DNA of 13,788 nucleotides, from NCBI GenBank assembly GCA_030668025.1, contig DAOUUT010000075.1:1-13788 (forward strand). Reading direction: 5' to 3'. How positions within the stretch are numbered: the first letter of the stretch is position 1; the number at the start of each line of letters is the position of its first letter. The position numbers and the translations under genes were made by a program. Positions 872-12,699 of the stretch are shown one piece after another. Under the pieces are notes generated by a model. The model saw only the letters and a program-made list of their open reading frames with translations. It searched no databases and was not told the DNA's origin. This stretch comes from Promethearchaeota archaeon. GTDB taxonomy: Archaea > Asgardarchaeota > Lokiarchaeia > Sigynarchaeales > SOKP01.

Positions 872-1522
872 ATGGCATTAAAAAAAAAACTTTTTCCCCG
901 GAAAGCTAAAGAAAAAGACGAATTAATTATTAAATCTAAAGCACACATTAGAAAAATAGCGTTAGCAAATAAATCTTTCAATAAAAGAGCAGAGATTGCT
1001 AGAAAAAACGCGAAAATTGCAATAAAGAGAGGAGAAAGAACTAGAGCTAAAAATTATTTAATTCAACACAAACAATATCAGTTGAAAGTAGATCGCGCGA
1101 ACAACATTAGAGCCAGAATTGAAAGACAGATAGAAGCTATCGAAGAGGGTCAAATGATATCAATGACAGGCGATTTAATGGGAGGAATTAGGGACGAATT
1201 AAAAGTGATAGCCACGAAAGCATCTCCTGTTAAGATTGCAGAGATAGCTGAAGATTCTGAGGCATATGTTTCGGAAATAGAGGAATCTGCCGAAATTCTT
1301 GCCGGAGATCCGGAAATAGATTTAGCAATCGATGTAACTGACGAATTAGACCAATTAGAAACCGAAATGCTTTTAGAACAAGGCGGTCAAATGCCAGAAG
1401 TACCTGCCGACGACTTACAATATCTGAGCGAGTTTGACGAGATGGAAGAAGAAACTGAAATAAAAACGAAAGCAAAATTAGAAGACGAAATCGACAAACT
1501 TAGGAAAGAATTAGAAAGCTAA
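872..1522 (+). CDS. ESCRT-III subunit (Snf7 family), probably Vps20/32/60-like
   Basis: ESCRT-III subunits polymerise on membranes, drive inward scission and are remodelled by the AAA ATPase Vps4. This 216-residue protein has the family layout: a very basic helical N-terminal half (to about residue 92) and an acidic C-terminal half, about the usual length. The segment IKRGERTRAKNYLIQHKQYQ (51-70), followed by IERQIEAIEEGQM (83-95) and a helix ending in LAG (143-145), resembles helices 2-4 of eukaryotic CHMP6/Snf7. This favours the Vps20/32/60 class over Vps2/24/46, but only by eye. Two candidate Vps4 MIT-interaction motifs are visible: MPEVP at 174-178 (MIM2-like) and LEDEIDKLRKEL at 203-214 (MIM1-like). 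No Vps4 or second ESCRT-III gene lies in the window. The ATG at 872 gives the expected short basic start. The gene converges with the zinc-finger/PH-like gene, with 59 bp between stops. Confidence 0.88.
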   Translation: MALKKKLFPRKAKEKDELIIKSKAHIRKIALANKSFNKRAEIARKNAKIAIKRGERTRAKNYLIQHKQYQLKVDRANNIRARIERQIEAIEEGQMISMTGDLMGGIRDELKVIATKASPVKIAEIAEDSEAYVSEIEESAEILAGDPEIDLAIDVTDELDQLETEMLLEQGGQMPEVPADDLQYLSEFDEMEEETEIKTKAKLEDEIDKLRKELES

Positions 1523-1529
1523 TTTTTTT
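1523..1529 (+). terminator. Oligo-T terminator candidate after ESCRT-III
   Basis: A run of seven T follows directly on the TAA stop of the ESCRT-III gene, with further T-rich DNA to about 1568. Archaeal RNA polymerase terminates at such oligo-T tracts without needing a hairpin. The gap to the convergent gene is only 59 bp, so termination must occur near here to avoid antisense reading. The genome is AT-rich, so the tract alone is weak evidence. Confidence 0.35.
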
Positions 1530-1581
1530 AAACTTATTCTCTTTACCAATTTTTAATAAATTTTGATTAGTATTGGAATTC

Positions 1582-3669
1582 TTATGTAAAATATCTTTTT
1601 TTATCGAATTTTCTAGCATTTCTTGTTAAAAAATCTTCTTCTTGCATCTCTTCGTCGAGCGATTCAATTCTTTTATCGATCGAGTAGAAATCCTTTTGTA
1701 AGTTTTTAAAATTTTTAATGTAATCAATTTCAGAAATATTTCCAGATTCAAATTTTGATTCTAACGTTTTTAACGTTTCTACGAGACTATATTTTTCTTT
1801 TTTCAATTCGAACATTTCTTGGCTACTCATTTTATTCATTTTCTTTGAATTAGGTCTTGGGAAATCGTTCGGTTGATTTGACATATTGTCATTATTAAAC
1901 AATTCTGAAAGATGATTCTTCGAATATTCGTTATATTGTGGCATTTGTCTAACTCTTTCATTCAATCGATTATAGGCAGGTTCGTAAGATCGCTCATCAA
2001 AATTTTTTCTATATAATGGATTAGAAGCAGGGTTGCCATATCTTTGCGATTGTTCTAATTTTCTCATTAGGAAGTTTTTTTCTTCAGCGTCAGACCCTAT
2101 AGGATCGTAATTCTGTATCCTATCAGCCTCATATAAATTTTGTACAAAGAATTCATTTTGATTGTAATTTTGCGGTGTGTAGTGCCTTATTGTGTTGCCG
2201 AAATGGTTTAAATCTTTAGGAGTTTGAATTTGACCGAACCCTTGATTAGAAAATCCTTGATTTTTTTGATAAAGCATTGGATTTCCGGGCACATTTTTAT
2301 AATTTTGATAAATATTAAATGGATAACTAAAATTATTTGGGTAGGTGGGCTGATTTTGATTATATGGGGCTTGGAATGAATTTTGATTTGGTAAATTCCT
2401 TAGATTTTGATTAAATGATGGGTTAACATTCTGATGATTACCGAATACATTATTCGAATTAACATTATTATATTGGCATTTTATGCTAAAGAAAGAATTT
2501 ATTGTCTCCTCAATATAATTAGTCAAATCGCTCAAATCGATGTCAATATCGTAAAGTTTTTTCGCTGCTAGTTTATCATACACATTAGTTTCATCAAAAC
2601 TTCTTGCTAGTAGAATATAGTCTAATACTCGTGAAATTGAATCTGAAGGAAGTGTGAATTCATATCTACCATAAGGAAATTCTATATAAAGTTTTTTAAA
2701 CAGCTTACCTTTTATTTTAACGCTAGTTAAATCTTTAACCGGTGCTTTAAAAATGCCTTCTTGCTTTCTTTTTAATCTTCCATATTCGTGAACAAATGAT
2801 AAGTCAAAATTAGTAATAAACAGAATACCTTTATCTTTTTTGTATTTATCTTGTGTGTTAAGACCATTAGCTAATTTTGCATATATCGCATAAACAGGTT
2901 TTTCATCATCTGCTAAATTAAGAAATTTAATATAGTTTTTGAAATAAAATGTGATTTTGTCTATGAAAATAAGATTCTTTAATAGGTTATCTATGCTAAT
3001 ATTTATCGTCTTTACATTACTCTGAATAAAATCGGTTATGGAATTATAGCTTCTACTTAAATTTTCTAGAATGTCTTCTATAATTCTTATATTAGAATTC
3101 TGTTGAGTGTAAATATTAAAAAAATATTCTTTATTTATTGATAAATGTTGGATAAAATTATGAATTTTTTCAAGAAGAGTTTCTTTTGCGTATATAAATA
3201 ATTTAAAGAGCGCTAAGAGGTCGGATTCCATTTTTGGATAATGATGGCACCTTATAGGCGGCGCTCTTGCATCTAATACTTTCTGTCTAATCATATAAAG
3301 GGAGTTTACTATATCCCTAAATGGATCAATAAAGGAGCGTGCGTTTTTAATTAATTCTAAAAATTGTTTTTCTAAATCTTCCTTCTTTTCGTAGATATTA
3401 ATAATTTGATGAGAATGACACTTGGGACAAGATTTTAAAAGTTGGTTCGTTTTGATTATATTCTCTTTTCCACAATCGTTACAAATCTTTTGTTTACTTG
3501 ATCCTGAGCGAGCAATATTTTTTGAATTACAATCTTGACAAACATAAGAATCGATTTTTTCTTCGTGAAGGCAATCAGAACAACAACTAACGCCACAATT
3601 TTCACAATAATATGCTATCTTCACATTTTGCTGGCAAAAATGACATATTTGGAAGTGTTGCTCCGACAT
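1582..3669 (-). CDS. Zinc-finger / GRAM-PH-like / low-complexity / helical-hairpin protein, candidate ESCRT adaptor
   Basis: This 695-residue protein has no characterised homologue that I recognise. Residues 9-84 carry many Cys pairs (C9/C12, C22/C25, C30/C33, C44/C47, C63/C66, C81/C84) plus His, giving a B-box- or RING-like module followed by a zinc ribbon. Residues 95-250 are mostly helical. Residues 255-360 look like a GRAM/PH-type beta-barrel: strands around GILFITNFDLSFV (281-293), KDLTSVKIKG (312-321) and KLYIEFPYGRYEFTL (326-340), then a helix. Residues 400-610 are rich in Asn, Gln, Tyr, Pro and Phe and should be disordered. Residues 616-680 form a charged helical hairpin; TLKTLESKFESGNISEIDY (632-650) resembles hairpins in Vps28 and the Vps23 steadiness box. 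Zinc fingers beside a PH-like domain recall yeast Vps36, though there the fingers sit inside the GLUE domain. Convergence with ESCRT-III supports an ESCRT role by inference. The L35Ae gene lies 182 bp upstream on the same strand. Confidence 0.72.
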   Translation of the reverse strand: MSEQHFQICHFCQQNVKIAYYCENCGVSCCSDCLHEEKIDSYVCQDCNSKNIARSGSSKQKICNDCGKENIIKTNQLLKSCPKCHSHQIINIYEKKEDLEKQFLELIKNARSFIDPFRDIVNSLYMIRQKVLDARAPPIRCHHYPKMESDLLALFKLFIYAKETLLEKIHNFIQHLSINKEYFFNIYTQQNSNIRIIEDILENLSRSYNSITDFIQSNVKTINISIDNLLKNLIFIDKITFYFKNYIKFLNLADDEKPVYAIYAKLANGLNTQDKYKKDKGILFITNFDLSFVHEYGRLKRKQEGIFKAPVKDLTSVKIKGKLFKKLYIEFPYGRYEFTLPSDSISRVLDYILLARSFDETNVYDKLAAKKLYDIDIDLSDLTNYIEETINSFFSIKCQYNNVNSNNVFGNHQNVNPSFNQNLRNLPNQNSFQAPYNQNQPTYPNNFSYPFNIYQNYKNVPGNPMLYQKNQGFSNQGFGQIQTPKDLNHFGNTIRHYTPQNYNQNEFFVQNLYEADRIQNYDPIGSDAEEKNFLMRKLEQSQRYGNPASNPLYRKNFDERSYEPAYNRLNERVRQMPQYNEYSKNHLSELFNNDNMSNQPNDFPRPNSKKMNKMSSQEMFELKKEKYSLVETLKTLESKFESGNISEIDYIKNFKNLQKDFYSIDKRIESLDEEMQEEDFLTRNARKFDKKRYFT

Positions 3670-3690
3670 ATTTAATTTTAAACCCGACCT

Positions 3691-3700
3691 ATTTAAATTT
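3691..3700 (-). promoter_or_regulatory. TATA-box candidate for the zinc-finger/PH-like gene
   Basis: On the minus strand AAATTTAAAT is centred about 27 bases upstream of the ATG at 3669. Archaeal TATA boxes sit about 25-27 bases before the transcript start, so this would place the 5' end at or next to the ATG, giving a leaderless or nearly leaderless mRNA. No Shine-Dalgarno-like sequence precedes the ATG, which fits. The surrounding DNA is very AT-rich, so the box could be fortuitous. Confidence 0.35.
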
Positions 3701-3851
3701 AAAAAAAATAATTTTTTATCGCTTTATCAACAGAAATAGATGAAAGTAACTTACTAAAATAAGTGTGTTATTTATGTATTATTTCGGAAATGCTAAAAAT
3801 TAGTAAGAAGAGAGTTTGATTAAAATTAATTTTTAAACGAAAACTAAAATA

Positions 3852-4145
3852 TTATTTAATAATTTTAATTTTAGTCCCCAGAGCTTGCCCAGGAACCCCG
3901 GCTTTTTTGAAGTGGGCTCTAACCGCTCCACTGTTACCATGTGCGCGTGATATGACACCTTTTAATTCTTTTCCCGTAGAACTTACCCAAACTACAGTTC
4001 TCCCGCACAGTTTATTAGCCTCTTTTCTAGTCTTAACATTTGGAAACACGAGTATACAATGTTTAAGGTGAATTGTGTGGCGCCCCTGCTTATAGTTGGA
4101 AATTCGGCCTTCCATTCCTAATACGTCTAATTTACTCAAAGCCAT
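3852..4145 (-). CDS. rpl35ae: Large ribosomal subunit protein eL33 (L35Ae)
   Basis: eL33 is a small RNA-binding beta-barrel protein of the 60S/50S subunit, found in eukaryotes and only some archaea. The 97-residue product matches family length. Its diagnostic motif RAHGNSGAVRAHF at 67-79 is almost the same as the eukaryotic one. It is followed by the expected conserved Pro and by a basic C-terminus (GTKIKIIK), and preceded by the LCGRTVVWV strand (46-54), which corresponds to the GKR-Y-V strand of L35Ae. The coding DNA is visibly richer in G and C than its neighbours, which fits codon bias for high expression. The gene stands alone here rather than in a ribosomal operon. A TATA-like TTATAATAA (about 4171-4180, minus strand) lies some 30 bases before the ATG, implying a very short leader. 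Confidence 0.95.
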   Translation of the reverse strand: MALSKLDVLGMEGRISNYKQGRHTIHLKHCILVFPNVKTRKEANKLCGRTVVWVSSTGKELKGVISRAHGNSGAVRAHFKKAGVPGQALGTKIKIIK

Positions 4146-4292
4146 AAAAAACCCATTTTAAATTAATGAATTATTATAATGAATTATTAGAAAAAATATT
4201 GAAAAAGATAAAAATTTTTCGTAAAAGTGGTTCTTTTAATCTAACTTTTTAAAAAGAAAACTTTTTGAGTAAATTACTTTTAATATTATCCA

Positions 4293-5702
4293 ATGAAATT
4301 CGCTTTTAATAAGTTAAACATTACTCCCAAAGAATATATAAGTAAACCTTTGGCAGGGTATACTCGTAAAGACCCTTGTTTAGGGAAGTTAGATGATATT
4401 TATGTTCATAGCGTTTTAATAGAAAGCAATTTAGTAGCATCTAATAAAAGTTTTTTGCTTCTAATATCATTAGATTTGTTAAAAGTCCCATTATCTATAA
4501 CAAAATACATTAGAAATAAAATAATTGAGAAATATCCTTCGTTAAAAGTTGAACAAATTTTAGTCCATGCCACTCATACTCACGCTGCTTTTGATTTAAC
4601 GGGCGAGTTTTATTGGCCTGGAGGTGCTCTAAATGTAATGAGAGGTATTATGTTTGGTGCGAATAGGAATGATAAATATATCGTATGGTTCACTAATAAA
4701 ATACTGAAAATGGTCGAAGGGTTATTTAATAATTTAAAGTCTTGTAAAATTGCGTGGAAAAAGGAACCCTTTAACCCAAACATAGTAATCAATAGAAGAC
4801 ACCCATCCAGGAAGACTCTCCCTCATTTAGGAGTAATTACTTTTAAAAGTCTAGACGAAAATGAACTACTAGGCTTTATTATTAACTATGCGTGCCATCC
4901 TACTACATTATCATACAAAAATAATAAATTATCTGCCGATTATCCTGGTCGTATAATTCAGAAAATTAACGAATTAACAAATAATAAAGTAAAAGCAATA
5001 TATTTCAATGGTGCTTCAGGTGATTTAAACCCTATAACAACATGTGGGACGGAGTACGAACAATTTGAATTGGATAAAACGCCAATATACGACCAACTAG
5101 GTACTTATCATGACACAGAAAGAATTGGATATACTATTGCTGAAGAATCGTTGAAATTAGCTAAATCTATTTCTGATGATGATTATTTTAGCGCCATAGA
5201 ATTCCAAATATATACTCACGAGTTTTGGATTCCAATGAAAGATCACAAGTATTTTTCTAAACAATGGTTTACAAACAAATTAATTTACGCAATTAAGAAA
5301 TTATTCTTGCTAAACATTGCTCGATATACAATGTTAAATTCTAATTTTCCAATTTTTCTAATCGATAAAAAGAAGGGTAAAATCAGATGCAACACTGTTA
5401 TTCAATATATCAAGGTTAGGGCAAAATCAAAATCTAAGAAAAAGGAATTTAGTTTAATGACAATTCCCGGAGAATTGTTTGAAGAAATAGGAGAAAGCTT
5501 TCTTAAAGCGTCTTTAACTGGAAAGGATAACATTTTTATTTTTCAAAATGCTCAAGATTGGATAGGATACCTATTTCCTCTACACGAATATACTGAAGAG
5601 GGAGGTTATGAACCAGTGCCAAGTTTTAGCCCACTTGGTGGTTATTTTGTGAAAAATGAAATGCGTAGACTTATAACAAAAATTAGTAAAGAAATTAAAT
5701 AA
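4293..5702 (+). CDS. Neutral-ceramidase-fold amide hydrolase (PF04734-like), substrate unknown
   Basis: Neutral/alkaline ceramidases are zinc amidases that cleave the N-acyl bond of ceramide. The 469-residue protein keeps their landmarks: LNITPKEY and LAGYTRKD near the N-terminus, HATHTH at 92-97 and ACHP at 200-203 (supplying likely zinc ligands H97 or H95, and H202), LSADYPGR at 213-220, IPGE at 391-394 (likely zinc ligand E394), and GYLFP with EYTEEGGYE at 425-440 (family Tyr ligand region). At the characterised nucleophile, in eukaryotic GDVSP, this protein reads GDLNP (244-247), so the Ser is Asn246. It may therefore not be a true ceramidase; many uncharacterised prokaryotic relatives share this pattern. 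There is no signal peptide, so it is probably cytoplasmic. The C-terminal Ig-like domain of classical ceramidases is absent. It stands alone on the plus strand, 147 bp from the divergent L35Ae gene. Confidence 0.8.
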   Translation: MKFAFNKLNITPKEYISKPLAGYTRKDPCLGKLDDIYVHSVLIESNLVASNKSFLLLISLDLLKVPLSITKYIRNKIIEKYPSLKVEQILVHATHTHAAFDLTGEFYWPGGALNVMRGIMFGANRNDKYIVWFTNKILKMVEGLFNNLKSCKIAWKKEPFNPNIVINRRHPSRKTLPHLGVITFKSLDENELLGFIINYACHPTTLSYKNNKLSADYPGRIIQKINELTNNKVKAIYFNGASGDLNPITTCGTEYEQFELDKTPIYDQLGTYHDTERIGYTIAEESLKLAKSISDDDYFSAIEFQIYTHEFWIPMKDHKYFSKQWFTNKLIYAIKKLFLLNIARYTMLNSNFPIFLIDKKKGKIRCNTVIQYIKVRAKSKSKKKEFSLMTIPGELFEEIGESFLKASLTGKDNIFIFQNAQDWIGYLFPLHEYTEEGGYEPVPSFSPLGGYFVKNEMRRLITKISKEIK

Positions 5703-5736
5703 ACATTAAGATTTTAAGATAAATTTCTTCTTGTAG

Positions 5737-6942
5737 TTATTTTATTAGTTCTTCCGCTAGCTCCCACGCTTTGTTATTTAAACTTATGATTTTCTTCGTA
5801 AATTCGTCGCTAGAAAGAGATGTTTCTTGATTTGTAACGTTTTCTACATCGCTTAGTAATTCTTTTTCTATACTTCTTAATCTGTTGATATACTCTTGCT
5901 TTTCTGGTTTAATTGAGCGATTTTTATATGGTTTTATAAATTCTTTATGTCTTGACCAAAACCAAGATGAATCTAACTCCTTGAACGGCCCAGGATTTTC
6001 TGTAGAAAATATTTGTCTTTGTCCCGGAAAAATATATGGTTTAAAGATATTTAAACACGGAAGTGTACCTCCAGTGAACCAATGTATAGATTCGCCATCT
6101 TTATTTACGTGTGATACTTGAGAGCCTGTTGATTGAAACGACCCGTGCATACATATTCCTACATTGTGTTCTCTCAAAAACTCCATCATTAACGTTGGAG
6201 TAATTTTTTGATTATTCTCGTTTAACATCGCCAATGTACACCCATCTCGTGTATTAGGAGAAAATTTATCTGGGATTTGAGGGTCTGAAAAAATCATAGC
6301 AAAATCAAAATCGTTGTCATCTTTACAATATCCTTTTTCAATAGCGTGTTGGATTATGCCTTTTCGTCTCATATCACCTTTTCCCCTAATTGATAGGTTG
6401 TTGGAAATTGATCTTACATCCTTAACGATTTCTACAATCCACCATTTGTCAGCTGTTTCTAACAAATATGCTTCTTTTGTATCCGCAATTAAAAACGAAT
6501 TATGGTATGTCCAACCTTGTTGCCTATAAGCACAACTCCCACCTTGCCCAAATTTTTCTAATAGATCTGTGATTACATTCAATGCTTCTTTAGCCGATTG
6601 TCCTCGTTCCACGCCTAAGCGTAGTAAATCCATCCCGGGTAATCCTGTATCTTGATAATTCTCTCTTGAATATACTGCCTCGTTTCCTATTACAACGCCA
6701 TATGAATTTGCGGCCATTTCAGCTCCAAACATCCAGTAAGGTTGCGAGAGAATAGTCTCATATGTTTCAGAGACTTGTGGAATGGAAATATAAGTACATT
6801 GTACGTCTTCCCCTTTGGAGTATTGCGTTCTGGGAATATATGTTACCAGTTGGGCTTCAGATTGAGGTCTATCACTATTTTTTCCAAAAACTACATTTCC
6901 ATCTTTAGTTGAATTTCCTAATGCTACTAATGTATCGCACAT
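5737..6942 (-). CDS. Secernin-type Ntn hydrolase (peptidase family C69)
   Basis: The C69 family comprises N-terminal-nucleophile hydrolases, including bacterial dipeptidases; eukaryotic secernins belong to it but their reaction is uncertain. The product begins MCDT, so removal of Met would expose Cys2 as the nucleophile, which also fixes the start. Motifs match animal secernins closely: FGKNSDRP (19-26), CTYISI (49-54), WMFGAEMAANSYGVVIGNEA (70-89), GMDLLRLGVERG (103-114), ALNVITDLLEKFGQGG (120-135), YHNSFLIAD (146-154), LETA (161-164) and SISNNLSI. The length of 401 is near human secernin-1 (about 414). No signal peptide or membrane segment is visible, so a cytosolic amidase or peptidase role is likely. 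The gene is divergent from the D-aminoacylase gene and converges with the ceramidase-fold gene, with 34 bp between stops. A TATA-like TTTTTAAATA (6969-6978, minus strand) lies about 31 bases upstream. Confidence 0.93.
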   Translation of the reverse strand: MCDTLVALGNSTKDGNVVFGKNSDRPQSEAQLVTYIPRTQYSKGEDVQCTYISIPQVSETYETILSQPYWMFGAEMAANSYGVVIGNEAVYSRENYQDTGLPGMDLLRLGVERGQSAKEALNVITDLLEKFGQGGSCAYRQQGWTYHNSFLIADTKEAYLLETADKWWIVEIVKDVRSISNNLSIRGKGDMRRKGIIQHAIEKGYCKDDNDFDFAMIFSDPQIPDKFSPNTRDGCTLAMLNENNQKITPTLMMEFLREHNVGICMHGSFQSTGSQVSHVNKDGESIHWFTGGTLPCLNIFKPYIFPGQRQIFSTENPGPFKELDSSWFWSRHKEFIKPYKNRSIKPEKQEYINRLRSIEKELLSDVENVTNQETSLSSDEFTKKIISLNNKAWELAEELIK

Positions 6943-7017
6943 AATTTCTTCAAAATCTTCATTTTATTTATTTAAAAATTTTAATTATTTAATTTAATAA
7001 ATATAGTTAAAATAAAA

Positions 7018-7044
7018 GTGTTTATTTCTTAAAATAAGAAACAC
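7018..7044. repeat. Imperfect inverted repeat between the secernin and D-aminoacylase genes
   Basis: The inner arms TTCTTA and TAAGAA flank a 3-base AAA loop. The outer GTGTT pairs with AACAC after a 4-base bulge on the left arm, giving about 10 paired positions in 27 bases. It lies in the 128-bp divergent region, some 27 bases before the GTG start at 7071. It could be an operator controlling one or both genes, or a hairpin in the deacylase leader. Both roles are inference. Confidence 0.35.
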
Positions 7045-7070
7045 TCGAAAATTAATTATAGTTGATATTA

Positions 7071-8711
7071 GTGGGATTATTAATTAAAAATGGATTGATT
7101 TTAGATGGTACTGGTTCACAAGGCTTTATATCGGATATTTTAATTGAAGGGGATAAGGTTGTTCAAATTAAGCAAAACATTGATGCAGCTGGAATAGAAA
7201 TGATCGATGCTTCAAATAAAGTTGTTGCCCCAGGTTTTATTGACATGCATCATCACGGAGACCTTTCAATTATGGAGCTAAATAAAGCAGAAGCGTCTAT
7301 AAAACAGGGTGTAACGACTCTTGTAGTAGGGATGTGCGGATTAGGACTTGCTCCCGCAAACGAAAAAGTAAGAACATATTACCAAAATTTCGTTAAAAAC
7401 ATTTTTGGGTCATCTGATATATTATATGATACAATTCAAGAATACATGGATGCTATTGTAAAAAAAGGGGTTTCTGTTAATCTTGCTTTTTTTATACCAC
7501 ACGGAAACGTTAGATTTTTAGTTTTGGGCTCTGAAAGGCGACCCGCAAACGAAAGTGAAATTGAAGAGATGAAAATAAGCGTAGAAGAAGGGATGAAAGC
7601 TGGAGCGTTTGGGATAACTACGGGTTTGATTTACCCTCCAGGCTCTATAACATCTACAGAAGAAATAATTGAACTATGCAAAATTGTAGCTCAATATAAT
7701 GGAATTTACGATTCGCATATGAGAAACGAAGGAGGAGATGTAATTAAGATAGGTATGACGGAATTAATAAAAATTGCCAGAGAAGCAAATGTTCAAGCGC
7801 AAATTTCTCATTGGAAAGCTGGAAGTAGCTTTGCTTGGAAATTAACTTCAGATATGATAAATTTAGTGAAGGAAGCTAGAGAACATGGGTTAAAAATCCA
7901 TGCCGATTTATATCCTTACGAAGAAAGTTCTACAAGTTTATCTTATATTCTACTTCAGCCTTGGGTCTACGATAATTTTAAAGAAAATCTCACTGATTTA
8001 GAAAATAGAAAAACAATTATTAACGAAATATTTAATTTAATATCAGCTAATTTTTTGTCTAGCGCTCCTAAAGCAATAAAACTTATCCCTAAAGTTATTT
8101 TACGAAAAATTCTCTTAAGATTTTTTAAAAAATCAGTGAGAATAATTAGTGTAACGCATAATCATAAAATAGAGGGTGAATTTTTAGGGCACGCAATCAA
8201 AAATTTATATCCAAAAAGAAAATTTATTGATGGTTTATTAGATTTTTTAAGAGATGAAGAAGGGGGGATTATGGTTTCTATGAGAATGATGAGTGAAACA
8301 AAAAGCATTAATTCCCTTTTTAAGCAAGATTTTGTATGCATAGGCTCTGATGGTTTCTTGATTAAACACGCAAATACTCACCCTCGATCGTATGGGACAT
8401 TTCCTAAAATTTTATCTAAATATGTAAGGGATAAAAACCTAGTTTCTTTAGAAAAAGCAATAAAGAAGATGACTTCCTTACCGGCAACTATATTGGGATT
8501 AAGTGATCGCGGTGAAATTAAAGAAGATAAAAAAGCAGATATTGTAATATTTGATTTTGAAAAAATAGAAGATAAATCTACCTATAAAAATGGGCGCCAA
8601 TTTCCAGAAGGAATTGATTATGTTATCGTAAATGGTAAAATAGCCGTTAAGAAAGGCATTCATACTGGAGTTTTAAACGGTCAAATTCTAAAACATAAAA
8701 GCAATAAATAA
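7071..8711 (+). CDS. N-acyl-D-amino-acid deacylase (D-aminoacylase), amidohydrolase superfamily
   Basis: D-aminoacylases are metal-dependent amidohydrolases that split N-acyl-D-amino acids into a carboxylate and a D-amino acid. The N-terminus LLIKNGLILDGTG is the standard opening of the family. Numbered from the GTG at 7071, the ligand set of characterised D-aminoacylase is complete and in order: H60 and H62 (GFIDMHHHGD), C89 in GMCG, H216 in YDSHMR, H247 in ISHW and D427 in GSDG. HPRSYGTFPKIL and the closing KADIVIFD strand also match. Length is 546, slightly above the usual 480-500; the extra appears to be a basic insert around 328-365. I chose GTG because it places LLIKNG two residues from the N-terminus; a TTG at 7062 in the same frame would add three residues. 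The protein looks cytoplasmic. The glycogen synthase gene follows after 163 bp, too far for a clear operon. Confidence 0.88.
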   Translation: MGLLIKNGLILDGTGSQGFISDILIEGDKVVQIKQNIDAAGIEMIDASNKVVAPGFIDMHHHGDLSIMELNKAEASIKQGVTTLVVGMCGLGLAPANEKVRTYYQNFVKNIFGSSDILYDTIQEYMDAIVKKGVSVNLAFFIPHGNVRFLVLGSERRPANESEIEEMKISVEEGMKAGAFGITTGLIYPPGSITSTEEIIELCKIVAQYNGIYDSHMRNEGGDVIKIGMTELIKIAREANVQAQISHWKAGSSFAWKLTSDMINLVKEAREHGLKIHADLYPYEESSTSLSYILLQPWVYDNFKENLTDLENRKTIINEIFNLISANFLSSAPKAIKLIPKVILRKILLRFFKKSVRIISVTHNHKIEGEFLGHAIKNLYPKRKFIDGLLDFLRDEEGGIMVSMRMMSETKSINSLFKQDFVCIGSDGFLIKHANTHPRSYGTFPKILSKYVRDKNLVSLEKAIKKMTSLPATILGLSDRGEIKEDKKADIVIFDFEKIEDKSTYKNGRQFPEGIDYVIVNGKIAVKKGIHTGVLNGQILKHKSNK

Positions 8712-8874
8712 GATAATAAACCCTTCTTATTTTTACCGCGATTGCCCCAAACAATAGCTAAATTTGATTAAACTTTAATAAAAGTAATGTTTTAAGTCTT
8801 TAAATAAATATTAATAATTAACTAAGTCTTGAGCTTTTTACCACGAAATTAAGTTCTTTAAAAACTAAGCTAAT

Positions 8875-10677
8875 TTGATAGAAAATAAGAAAAAAGTATG
8901 GATTTTTTCATTTGAGTACGCTGGTGTAGCTAAGGTAGGCGGACTTGGTGAGGTACCTGCAAACCAAGCAAAACAATTAGCTGAACAGTTCGATATTACC
9001 GTATTTATGCCATCCCATGGGCAACTTGAAAATCTAAAAAACAAATTTAAATTGGAAAAATTACCATTCACTTGTGTCGGTCAAATTAATCCTTCTTTTA
9101 TCGGAATAAATAAGCAGGAAGCGAGCTATTATATTTCATTTTATAAATTTAAAATGGAAAATGTGAATATCGTTTTAGTTTCTGGAGAAAATTCTTTCAC
9201 ATCAAAGTATTTGGATGATAAGACGGTTTATAATCCAGAAACAATAAAAGGTAAGATATCTCTTTTTAGCATTGGGATTCAATGTTTAGTAGAATTCTTT
9301 ATAAAAAATAACAAGAGCGATCTGCCTGAAGTTGTTCATTTGCATGATTACCACGTTGTTTTACCCTATATAGGAATGAAACAGAACTTAGAAAAAAACA
9401 GTTTAAATGTTGCTTCAATATTAACGATACACTTATTAACTTGGCCGAGGTTCGAATACGACTTTTATAGAGCAAGTGGAATAGACGAAACGCCTTTTAG
9501 AGTATTGTTAAATGAAGGTTATAAAGTACTAAATTTGAAGGAAATATTTAGACTATCTAAGGAATTTAACGAATCAGATGTTGGGTCTACAGCACCCACA
9601 GTTGAAAAGATTGGAGCTATTATATCAGATGTGGTTACTACAGTAAGTCAATCATATTTAATATCAGATATTATTCCAAACTGTGGTAAAAAACTAATTG
9701 AGTTCAAGGCTGATTTTGTTTGGGATGGATGTGATTGGGACCACAAAGATATTTTTGATAAAGTATTAAGTATACATGGAAAGGAAATTCGCGAATTCCT
9801 AAATCTCTCAGAAGAAACTGAGATTACAACTATCAATATGAAAAAATTCCTTTTAGAGTACAAAATAGGTAATCTCAGCCAAAGCCCATTAATTAATTCT
9901 AAAACCGTTTTAGATACAATAAACGAAATATCAAACGGAAATCCCTTTATTAAAAACGGTAATATTAAAGCCTTTTCAGAATCAGGCCCGTTAGTTCTTA
10001 CAACAGGGAGGGTTTCTCCTCAAAAAGGTTTTGAAATTATTTTTGAAGCAATTCCAGAGGTCTTAAAGGCAGTTCCTAATGCTAAATTCCTTTTTCTCAT
10101 ATTACCCACAGATTATAGTTTAAATGAAATAAGGATCTATTCTGACTATGTAAAACAATATCCAGAAAATATCCGAATAGTCTTTGGAGTGGCTTCCGAT
10201 ATTTTTTATCTGGCGCATATATCTGCAGATATTTATTGTGCTTTATCGCGATGGGAGCCTTTCGGTATTATGGCATTAGAAGCAATGGCATGTAAAATCC
10301 CTATTATCGCAAGTAAAGTTGGAGGCTTACAAGAAACTATTATTGATGTAAAATTGTTTCCCGAAATAGGTACTGGTATTCTAATAGAAAAAGATAACCC
10401 CCATCAATTTGCAAATGCATTAATATCCCTTTTTAAATCGTCGGAAGTTGTGCAGCATCTGAAGGATTCTGAAAATAATACAATCTATGATATTGATATT
10501 CTAAATATCATTAACCAGATACCAGATGAAATAATTAAATCACATGTTTTATTAGATCCATATTATTTTCTGAAAATTAAAGAAAATTGCTACAAAAGGG
10601 TTAAGACGAATTTTACATGGAGCATTGTTTCTAAAAAATTAGCTAATCTGTATTCTAATTTACAACATATGAGCTAA
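8875..10677 (+). CDS. glgA: Glycogen/starch synthase, GT5 family
   Basis: GT5 enzymes transfer glucose from ADP- or UDP-glucose to the end of an alpha-1,4-glucan. This 600-residue GT-B protein opens with FEYAGVAKVGGLGEVPANQA, containing the KxGGL donor-binding motif (K20-L24). HLHDYH at 155-160 corresponds to the conserved HDWH segment. The C-terminal domain has TGRVSPQKG with catalytic Arg379 and Lys384, and EPFGIMALE at 461-469, the EX7E motif. The start is TTG: an in-frame stop lies at 8866-8868 and no in-frame ATG or GTG occurs before the KxGGL motif. It is longer than bacterial GlgA (about 480) and nearer in size to crenarchaeal enzymes. The extra length lies between the two Rossmann domains (about 270-370) and near the C-terminus (about 520-565). 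No branching enzyme or pyrophosphorylase is adjacent. The product suggests storage of an alpha-glucan; the nucleotide-sugar donor cannot be read from sequence. Confidence 0.9.
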   Translation: MIENKKKVWIFSFEYAGVAKVGGLGEVPANQAKQLAEQFDITVFMPSHGQLENLKNKFKLEKLPFTCVGQINPSFIGINKQEASYYISFYKFKMENVNIVLVSGENSFTSKYLDDKTVYNPETIKGKISLFSIGIQCLVEFFIKNNKSDLPEVVHLHDYHVVLPYIGMKQNLEKNSLNVASILTIHLLTWPRFEYDFYRASGIDETPFRVLLNEGYKVLNLKEIFRLSKEFNESDVGSTAPTVEKIGAIISDVVTTVSQSYLISDIIPNCGKKLIEFKADFVWDGCDWDHKDIFDKVLSIHGKEIREFLNLSEETEITTINMKKFLLEYKIGNLSQSPLINSKTVLDTINEISNGNPFIKNGNIKAFSESGPLVLTTGRVSPQKGFEIIFEAIPEVLKAVPNAKFLFLILPTDYSLNEIRIYSDYVKQYPENIRIVFGVASDIFYLAHISADIYCALSRWEPFGIMALEAMACKIPIIASKVGGLQETIIDVKLFPEIGTGILIEKDNPHQFANALISLFKSSEVVQHLKDSENNTIYDIDILNIINQIPDEIIKSHVLLDPYYFLKIKENCYKRVKTNFTWSIVSKKLANLYSNLQHMS

Positions 10678-10719
10678 ACTTCTTGAATTGATGTAAAATA
10701 ATTGATTCTCTCCAATATT

Positions 10720-12699
10720 TTAACTATGCCAAAAGGGATATAAATTTTTAATTAAAACACCTTCCCTATCTGGCACAACTTCAAGTTCTTTTCTTACCCA
10801 TTCAGAAATCCATTTGTATTTCTGTTTAAAACGGAAATCCATAAATATTATTGCGCCTTTATCTTTTATTTTTCGTATAGGTCGCCCAGAAGCTTGATTT
10901 GCCCTTTGAACGGCAGGATATAGGTACGCGAAATTCCATCCTTGTTTATCAAAAACTTTATCGTAATATTCTATTTTTGCATTGACTCTGGGGGTGGGTA
11001 AATGATAAGGAAATCCAGCAATTATTACTGAATTCATATGATCTCCCGGATAATCTTCTCCTTCTGAATTTCGCCCTCCACACACGCCCAATAAAACAGC
11101 TCCATTACGAGAAGGTGATGCCATTGATTTAAAATCGTTTACTAAGAAGGCATTTTCTGAAGCAGAAAGTCCTGGTTCCTCGATAAATAATTGTTTTTTA
11201 TTCTTATTAGCTACAGATTCAATACCATTCGTAACTAATGCGTTTAGAATTTTATATGAAGCACAAAAGATACCTGTGTTAGCAGGAGTGCTATAAATTA
11301 CTTCGTCAATTTTAGAGAGTATTTTTTTAAACATTGGACCTGTTCGACTCCCTCTACGCGTGTCTACTCCTTCTGTAATTATTGCTTTGATGTTTTCCTT
11401 TTGAAATGGTGAGCCCGCAATGATTCCCTTATAACTTTTTCCACTTTCTATTAAACCCATTAAATTATTATAAACATAAGGATTTACGGTCCCAGAAAGA
11501 TGCACACTAGTATAACACTCTTTTAAAATGGGAATTACAATATCTCTTGGGTCTAACGCAACAATTTCTATTGAAATTATCGGTCTCTCTTTTACCCTTT
11601 TAAGATTATAACAAAAGAAGTAATTATCCAGTAAATAGCATTTTATCCATTTTAGCCAGAACTCTGCTAATGCTCCTACGAAATCTCTTGAAATATCACC
11701 ATTTGCAACCTTTTCGTCATGAATTGAAGCACTAAAATCGTGTAAATCCCTAACAAAAGTCTTAAAATCGTTTAAGTTTGAAAGCCCTAAATTTGAATAA
11801 ACTTGAAGTAGAAAATTTTCTGCTTTAATTTCTATTTCTACCACACTTATACTCTTTTTCTTCTTTTCTAAATGGCTTAATAGGACTTTTACAAACCTCT
11901 GCATAATACTTGGTGACCTGAAAATTTCTAAGTCCTTTAGACATATTCTTAGTGAGTACGGCGTTATTCTATCGGAATTAATTTCTGTTGCCATATCAAT
12001 TACATTATGACATTCATCAAGCACTAAAATGCAATTATTAAGCTCTTCATCTATAAATTGTAAAAAATTTTCGCGTATAAAAGGATTGAAAATCCACTGG
12101 TAATTGCATGTAATTATCCTCATTTCTTTAAGAAGAAATTTGCTCAAAAAATAAGGACATAATTTTTTTTCTTTACACAAGTTAATTAATTCTTCGGCAT
12201 CAACCGGTTTACTTAATAAATCAGGAGCAATATCGATAGGGTTATCGTATTCATTTCTTTTTTTGATTAAATTAAGAAAATATCTACAATTTTTATTTTT
12301 TCTTAAGTCTCCACACACGGACATCGATTCTTTAGGTTTAAGCTTTAACGATAACAGTGTTTCGTTAAGGCACATTTCGTTCCTTCCCCTGATGGAAAGC
12401 CCGTTTATTTGGATTTGGGATGATTTCTTTTTTAGAAAATTTGAAATTTTAGTTAGTTCTTTAATAATCCTTGTATTCTGAGAATGAGTACGACACATAT
12501 AAATAATTTTTAAATTATTTCGTATTGATAAAGGCAATAAGGCACTTAAAGCAATTATAGTCTTACCTGTACCATTTGGAGCAGCAAGTAAAGTATTTTT
12601 CTTTTCAATTGAAGCTTTTTCAATTTTTTTCGTGATATCTTCTTGATCGCGTCTAAATTGGTCATATGGAAAGAAATCAAGGTAATTTATTTTGTACAC
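10720..12699 (-). CDS. xpd: XPD/Rad3-family Fe-S DNA helicase
   Basis: XPD-family helicases unwind DNA 5' to 3' using ATP and a 4Fe-4S cluster; in eukaryotes XPD is part of TFIIH. The 659-residue product has FPYDQFRRDQ (10-19, the family N-terminal motif), Walker A NGTGKT (42-47), motif Ia CRTHSQN (69-75) and DECH at 228-231, the family variant of DEAH. Between motifs Ia and II lie Cys110, Cys129, Cys138 and Cys181, in the order expected for the cluster ligands. Motif V appears as GEDYP followed by SVIIAGFPYHLPTPRV, and motif VI as QASGRPIR at 602-609. Length and motifs fit archaeal XPD better than DinG. The start is a GTG at 12699; no in-frame ATG precedes the conserved N-terminal motif. It converges with the glycogen synthase gene (42-bp gap) and diverges from the membrane protein gene. 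It could be one of several XPD paralogues in the genome. Confidence 0.92.
   Translation of the reverse strand: MYKINYLDFFPYDQFRRDQEDITKKIEKASIEKKNTLLAAPNGTGKTIIALSALLPLSIRNNLKIIYMCRTHSQNTRIIKELTKISNFLKKKSSQIQINGLSIRGRNEMCLNETLLSLKLKPKESMSVCGDLRKNKNCRYFLNLIKKRNEYDNPIDIAPDLLSKPVDAEELINLCKEKKLCPYFLSKFLLKEMRIITCNYQWIFNPFIRENFLQFIDEELNNCILVLDECHNVIDMATEINSDRITPYSLRICLKDLEIFRSPSIMQRFVKVLLSHLEKKKKSISVVEIEIKAENFLLQVYSNLGLSNLNDFKTFVRDLHDFSASIHDEKVANGDISRDFVGALAEFWLKWIKCYLLDNYFFCYNLKRVKERPIISIEIVALDPRDIVIPILKECYTSVHLSGTVNPYVYNNLMGLIESGKSYKGIIAGSPFQKENIKAIITEGVDTRRGSRTGPMFKKILSKIDEVIYSTPANTGIFCASYKILNALVTNGIESVANKNKKQLFIEEPGLSASENAFLVNDFKSMASPSRNGAVLLGVCGGRNSEGEDYPGDHMNSVIIAGFPYHLPTPRVNAKIEYYDKVFDKQGWNFAYLYPAVQRANQASGRPIRKIKDKGAIIFMDFRFKQKYKWISEWVRKELEVVPDREGVLIKNLYPFWHS

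Follow-up and report, generated by a model that had tools for sequence, protein, structure and literature searches.

A zinc-binding, PH and steadiness-box protein encoded convergently with ESCRT-III in Asgard archaea, a likely ESCRT-I-type membrane adaptor

The window analysed here, 13,788 nucleotides of contig DAOUUT010000075.1 (assembly GCA_030668025.1) from a Promethearchaeota archaeon, harbors a gene for an ESCRT-III protein (P0002; ESCRT, endosomal sorting complex required for transport) that converges with a gene for a protein of 695 residues (P0001), referred to below as the adaptor. We consider it likely, with a probability of roughly 0.7, that this protein belongs to the Znr_PH_CC_SB family of Asgard archaea and serves as an ESCRT-I-type membrane adaptor, helping to bring ESCRT-I and ESCRT-II to the site of ESCRT-III. 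Its modules and their order were obtained from sequence and structure prediction, its C-terminal hairpin was found at the family level to be related to Vps23, and its gene has kept its place beside ESCRT-III in most related genomes (Table 1).

A preliminary description of this DNA, made from the sequence alone, had proposed a Snf7-type ESCRT-III gene convergent with its neighbour, and both genes were confirmed. P0002 matched Pfam Snf7 above the curated cut-off (E 8.1e-10) and PDB chain 9fn1_U, a 'Vps20/32/60-like protein' (E 1.8e-92), with 153 of 216 residues identical in the alignment (71%), while a tree of 40 proteins placed it in the ESCRT-IIIB clade. Judged from its Snf7 domain and this placement, it is an ESCRT-III protein of the Vps20/32/60 group, and its probable orthologue, at the same identity, is Loki GC14_75 CHMP4-7 of PDB entry 9FN1. 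The source of that entry (PMC11791191) reports the structure and names the Loki GC14_75 proteins employed; the adaptor is not treated in the portions of it covered here.

For P0001, 262 homologues were found at E<=0.001 among 7992 candidates scored, with relatives at seven Lokiarchaeota/Lokiarchaeia loci being 77–90% identical, which marks the window as Lokiarchaeal. Among 227 Asgard genomes, profile A1, built from 22 relatives, found matches in 167 at E<=0.001, many of these being partial, and profile A7, built from 31 diverse members, found matches in 162 at E<=1e-10; given these matches and the number of homologues, P0001 is a real gene. A third protein search, with the diverse family profile A3, returned 10 proteins, and a scan of NCBIfam gave nothing useful. 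Adaptors of Loki-type and Thor-type loci are only about 20% identical, but agree in the cysteines and at many further positions throughout their length. Most Thor-type adaptors are compact, with about 520 residues, and the model of one of them reached a mean predicted local distance difference test (pLDDT) of 86; the order of modules was common to this model and that of the window protein. In one genome (G088, loci L079/L222), a single in-frame TAA separates the zinc module from the rest of the adaptor frame.

Adjacency was surveyed at 149 loci, namely the window and 148 Asgard genomes with one locus each, some genomes matched by A7 lying outside this set (e.g., G008, G009, G013, and G143). 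An ESCRT-III gene was present in the fetched stretch at 122 of them, 119 coming from the main scan, two from a scan without filtering of open reading frames (ORFs) (L111 and L094, both convergent), and one from a longer stretch (G162); it was convergent with the adaptor gene in 121 cases and on the same strand in one. Apart from 17 loci limited by contig ends, with less than 2.3 kb of downstream DNA each, the survey suggested by the preliminary description thus revealed the convergent pair at 121 of 132 testable loci. No ORF lay between the two genes in 91 of these, one in 25, and two to seven in 5 (at most one in 116), the last class including G094, where 7.7 kb separate the pair. The surroundings differed between the two types: the Loki-type (60 loci) and Thor-type (44 loci) neighbourhoods had a single other neighbour family in common, at one locus each. 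While Loki-type pairs were flanked by L35Ae (51/60) and DHQS2 (47/60), Thor-type pairs were flanked by Vps4, Vps25, and EAP30, i.e., the flanks were replaced and the pair was kept. Since the pair is kept in most related genomes, the two products probably work in the same machinery.

Some of these neighbourhoods showed further features. An extra gene oriented as the adaptor lies between the pair in many Loki-type loci (L028, 399–1433, and similar loci; cluster c4, 30 ORFs), and one scanned ORF of this cluster matches cobalamin-independent methionine synthase. One group of adaptors lacks a convergent ESCRT-III neighbour (L184, L185, and L213 in G158, G159, and G162), and the L35Ae gene and the helicase family of the window neighbourhood each recur in two of four loci there. 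Near the adaptor of G086, a protein with sub-threshold matches to MIT (1.1e-4) and HEPN (0.0011) is encoded (L076, 3209–3847).

A link to ESCRT-I came from the C-terminal hairpin, for which the model of the window protein predicts helices at residues 608–641 and 647–689. Profile A4, built from 32 diverse hairpins with L109 omitted, placed the three yeast Vps23 chains first in PDB (5e-6, 7.7e-6, and 2.7e-5), followed at a distance by human TSG101 (0.06), and A3 likewise matched yeast Vps23 best of all PDB sequences. At E<=0.1, 22 of these 32 matched Pfam Vps23_core, the best with an E-value of 2.4e-7, and the cut-off of this Pfam family was reached or exceeded in L079 (26.9 vs. 26.8) and G077 (26.8 vs. 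26.8). At the family level, the hairpin is therefore kin to Vps23 as far as sequence comparison goes, and the headpiece-like hairpin of the preliminary description was borne out. The alternative that the hairpin is a generic coiled coil and not a steadiness box was rejected with 32 reversed hairpins as control: Vps23_core was not among the best 25 of 44 families listed for them, a list already down to single-member families, so that at most one of the 32 can have matched. The Vps37 family (Mod_r) gave no Pfam match to P0001 at E<=1 and was not among the best 25 of 66 families listed for the hairpins, where short hairpins can be missed.

At the other end of the adaptor, the N-terminal module contains eight cysteines spaced C-x2-C-x9-C-x2-C-x4-C-x2-C-x10-C-x2-C, which we take to be B-box/FYVE-like, followed by four more, giving six CxxC pairs (9, 12, 22, 25, 30, 33, 44, 47, 63, 66, 81, and 84). 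All 12 were invariant in 31 of 31 aligned members, including the Thor-type ones; 33 members had been picked, and L064 (contig end) and L079 (in-frame stop) were omitted because the region was cut off. At E<=0.1, Pfam zf-B_box matched 29 of the 31, double zinc ribbon (DZR) 26, and an ANCHR-like B-box 18, and RING and B-box chains headed the PDB list of the zinc-module profile (RNF4, 1e-5; RING2/BMI-1, 3.2e-4). In our reading, residues 9–47 form a candidate for one B-box-like cross-brace and residues 63–84 for a ribbon. For this module (window positions 3418–3645), the same PDB list contained the FYVE chain of ZFYVE19, beside the ANCHR-like B-box matches; ANCHR/ZFYVE19 is an ESCRT abscission regulator.

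Between the two ends, the window model predicts helices at residues 92–113, 115–134, 147–188, and 194–247, and the Thor-type model predicts long helices at 92–241. The PH fold was likewise obtained from predicted structures. The preliminary description had suggested a comparison with the GLUE domain of Vps36, and here the outcome was divided: GLUE-type chains ranked 6 and 9 in the fold comparison of the Thor-type model, but they were not among the best 50 matches listed for the window protein's own model. At the sequence level, Pfam Vps36_ESCRT-II matched only 7 of 33 PH pieces at E<=0.1, weakly (best 0.0033), and the PH profile did not match PDB Vps36 significantly (E 0.62). The linker is composed of 20% Asn and 10% Gln and ranged from 19 to 269 residues among 106 aligned members. 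All four elements of the preliminary description, i.e., a Cys-rich zinc module, a PH-like fold, a disordered linker, and a helical hairpin, were thus recovered; adjacency was conserved, and both a PH barrel and an ESCRT-I-like hairpin were predicted. The linker of the window protein contains PTYP at 441–444; a P[ST]xP motif for UEV binding was rejected as a general feature, as it occurred in 14 of 68 linkers of at least 60 residues, with 10.8 expected by shuffling. A possible GLUE relative separate from the adaptor came to light at L208 (939–1805, minus strand), L209 (1847–2692, plus strand), and L210: G084 encodes a protein of about 280–290 residues with an N-terminal Pfam match to Vps36-GLUE/GRAM (7.5e-5) and a C-terminal zinc ribbon, a similar ORF is present in G086, and a similar match was found by scan only in G082.

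Scans for other ESCRT parts and for ubiquitin covered 20 chosen genomes, among them five Thor-type genomes. Vps28 was detected in 17 of the 20 at E<=0.01 (14 above cut-off), Pfam UEV in five (three above cut-off), and Vps23_core in ten, the sole match in G128, G129, and G131 being the adaptor itself. G077 carries an ESCRT island (L211, G077:C69:42000-56000, 3493–11001) with genes for the adaptor, an E2/UEV-domain Vps23, Vps28, EAP30, Vps25, Vps4, and two ESCRT-III proteins, and the same contig has a ubiquitin match at 44246–44437.

Table 1. Features of the convergent gene pair in the window (residue numbers refer to P0001).
Feature	Position	Strand	Evidence
ESCRT-III gene P0002, Vps20/32/60 (ESCRT-IIIB) type, 216 residues	872..1522	+	Pfam Snf7; PDB 9fn1_U; tree
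Gap between the stop codons of the convergent genes, 59 bp	1523..1581		ORF coordinates; sequence
Adaptor gene P0001, 695 residues, Znr_PH_CC_SB-type architecture	1582..3669	-	ORF; homologues; models of the window protein and a Thor-type relative
C-terminal helical hairpin, residues 608–689, like the Vps23/TSG101 core (steadiness box)	1603..1848	-	Model helices; family profiles; Pfam Vps23_core
Disordered Asn/Gln/Pro/Tyr-rich linker, residues 405–606	1852..2457	-	pLDDT mostly <50; composition
Predicted PH/GRAM-fold domain, residues 256–360	2590..2904	-	Predicted structures
Long-helix coiled-coil region, residues 92–247	2929..3396	-	Helices in model; similar layout in Thor-type model
Zinc ribbon, residues 63–84	3418..3483	-	Cys 63, 66, 81, and 84 invariant; several zinc-ribbon models
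N-terminal 8-Cys module, residues 9–47, B-box/RING-like spacing	3529..3645	-	Invariant Cys; zf-B_box/double zinc ribbon; PDB RING and B-box chains

From the features described above, we infer every binding event of the adaptor and the recruitment itself. The hairpin would most likely pack into the ESCRT-I headpiece with the hairpin of Vps28 and, where present, that of Vps23, while the PH/GRAM-type barrel would position the complex on the membrane and the B-box-like and zinc-ribbon module would bind a protein partner or a cargo tag. The coiled coil would space the two ends and the linker would supply slack, and the adaptor would thereby help to bring ESCRT-I/II to the polymerisation site of the neighbouring ESCRT-III product.

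Several results weigh against an ESCRT-I-type adaptor working beside ESCRT-III, in part with respect to the gene pair. No ESCRT-III gene was found within 4.0–13.8 kb downstream at 10 of the 132 testable loci (G129, G088, G063, G064, G065, G068, G089, G090, G158, and G159; in G129, an ESCRT-IIIB-type gene is about 180 kb distant). The claim that the pair is always convergent was dropped after the exceptions had been rechecked in longer stretches, as G162 has its ESCRT-IIIB gene 4.4 kb downstream, encoded by the same strand as the adaptor. When the 146 loci with more than 350 adaptor residues were grouped at 40% identity, nine of 17 groups had the pair, five (groups 3, 5, 12, 14, and 16) had none despite enough DNA, and three were contig-limited, and L168, from one of the five pairless groups, gave no Vps23_core or PH match at E<=0.01. 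In addition, the genomes are related, so that 121 convergent loci are not 121 independent cases. Other points concern the architecture. The window protein's own hairpin and PH domain stayed under the Pfam cut-offs (Vps23_core, E 0.057; PH_SLA1, E 0.089), so that the argument depends on family-wide comparison and on the models. Direct sequence comparison of this protein with PDB gave nothing meaningful, and neither did the near-relative profile A1, which reached yeast Vps23 only at 1.9, so that the diverse profile A3 was needed. The hairpins also matched other coiled-coil families (APG6_N, 13/32; GvpG, 9/32; Snapin, 8/32), and a short phycobiliprotein match of the A4 profile (3.6e-4) indicates that its E-values are somewhat generous. 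Finally, the whole-genome scan for Vps23_core (E<=0.01) was empty in 10 of the 20 genomes, including all five Thor-type genomes, and thus failed to detect the adaptor there as well.

Which ESCRT-III protein is encoded next to the adaptor varies, and this bears on whether the adaptor is instead a dedicated recruiter or regulator that binds the neighbouring ESCRT-IIIB polymer directly, without being an ESCRT-I subunit. The convergent partner is of the IIIB type in 78 of the 121 loci, and in four genomes with IIIA and IIIB in tandem (G010, G011, G012, and G077; tandem loci L089, L090, L115, and L116) it is the IIIB gene that adjoins the adaptor. However, in the other 43 loci, from Thor-type genomes, the partner is IIIA: the tree of 40 proteins, which carries a long-branch warning, assigned IIIB partners to Loki-type and several other groups and IIIA partners to Thor-type loci, and one Thor-type partner had CHMP1, CHMP3, and CHMP2 as its best PDB matches. 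A IIIB gene is nevertheless present elsewhere in four of five Thor-type genomes tested (G206, G194, G181, and G183), only one ESCRT-III gene being seen in G214. The dedication to one ESCRT-III type implied by the preliminary description was abandoned on these counts, the adaptor being a component of the ESCRT locus, and as its hairpin resembles Vps23 and not a known ESCRT-III-binding module, direct action on IIIB is an unlikely explanation. On a simple reading, the ancestral row may have been adaptor> <IIIB <IIIA Vps4> Vps25>, of which Loki retained adaptor–IIIB and Thor adaptor–IIIA. Even less likely, in our view, is that slow rearrangement alone has kept neighbours without a common function together. 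It would agree with the relatedness of the genomes, with the retention of L35Ae and DHQS2 in Loki-type loci, and with the lack of a common promoter in convergent genes, but not with a pair that is kept while its flanks are replaced across groups so divergent in the adaptor, and the ESCRT-I-type hairpin lies inside the adaptor itself, so that the association is more than positional.

The zinc module could also point to a TRIM/RING-like protein of the ubiquitin pathway, in which it would act as a ligase or bind ubiquitin and the hairpin and PH domain would merely place it. The RING chains at the head of the PDB list and the ubiquitin-type matches (PF00240) in 15 of the 20 genomes speak for this, but the values for RNF4 and RING2/BMI-1 each sum two RING copies per chain, and single stretches are weak (0.064 and 0.13 for RNF4; 0.015 for RING2/BMI-1). 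Moreover, the ligands are all Cys, and B-box models match nearly all members. All five Thor-type genomes lack a PF00240 match at E<=0.001 and yet keep the adaptor, the aligned Thor-type members with all 12 cysteines; a general role in ubiquitin binding, as put forward in the preliminary description, is therefore unsupported, and we regard a ubiquitin-pathway protein as improbable. Within the preferred reading of an ESCRT-I-type adaptor, it is conceivable, and put forward here only tentatively, that the adaptor is the missing third ESCRT-I hairpin of Asgard archaea, in the place of eukaryotic Vps37, and at the same time the bearer of the GLUE-type PH domain found on Vps36 in eukaryotes. The island of G077, where the adaptor gene stands beside those for Vps23, Vps28, the Vps22-like EAP30, Vps25, Vps4, and both ESCRT-III proteins, is compatible with this.

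In contrast to the preliminary description, which had called the protein undescribed, its architecture is already in print. Makarova et al. (2024, PMC10936438) described Znr_PH_CC_SB/Znr_CC_PH_SB (asCOG cog.011556) as consisting of three Zn ribbons, a PH domain, a coiled coil, and a steadiness box, absent in eukaryotes, present in several Asgard lineages and likely ancestral in Asgard, and proposed that it is likely part of ESCRT-I, its PH domain being associated with the membrane. As far as that text was covered, the window adaptor agrees with it in the three N-terminal zinc-binding motifs, coiled coil, PH domain, and steadiness box, and no difference emerged; its count of three ribbons would also be compatible with our DZR matches. 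In the covered text, the word 'convergent' does not occur and neither the pairing nor the IIIA/IIIB switch is remarked upon, though figure 3C may show the arrangement. A literature search on the family and the pair, with figures and supplements outside its scope, revealed no remark on convergent pairing, and the covered portions of PMC12993045 and PMC7240154 contain nothing on either. Beyond the published text thus covered, the present analysis adds how widely and in which orientation the adaptor gene accompanies ESCRT-III, where it does not, the switch between IIIB and IIIA partners, the family-level kinship with Vps23, and the case against a general ubiquitin role.

Compared with known ESCRT subunits, the adaptor shares the C-terminal core hairpin with Vps23/TSG101 at the family level, but has a PH domain and a zinc module instead of UEV (no match of P0001 to UEV or UQ_con at E<=1), and it coexists with the E2/UEV-domain Vps23 in G077. 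Like Vps36/EAP45, it carries zinc modules and a PH-fold domain on a single polypeptide, but lacks the EAP30 winged-helix part (no match at E<=1 in P0001 and ten relatives). Table 1 of Caspi and Dekker (2018, PMC5840170) gives Lokiarch_16740 as the Asgard Vps23 homologue and has Lokiarch_16760 in its Vps20/32/60 rows; the former tag is two below the latter, which may be compared with the 25 loci with one ORF inside the pair, Lokiarch_16740 being at most a candidate member of the adaptor family. Hatano et al. (2022, PMC9192718) reported that a steadiness-box protein from Loki interacts with Vps22 in the yeast two-hybrid assay and may contact Vps28.

Elsewhere in the window, a gene at 4293–5702 with a sub-threshold match to neutral/alkaline ceramidase (1.7e-6) adjoins a gene for a C69-type peptidase.

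The ESCRT machinery of Asgard archaea is eukaryote-like, and its route to the membrane is still unsettled. No Vps36 and no clear Vps37 homologue was found in Asgard genomes according to the covered parts of PMC9192718. With its Vps23-type hairpin and PH domain and its place kept beside ESCRT-III, the adaptor is a concrete candidate for this task, and its compact Thor-type members make the candidate role testable with purified proteins.

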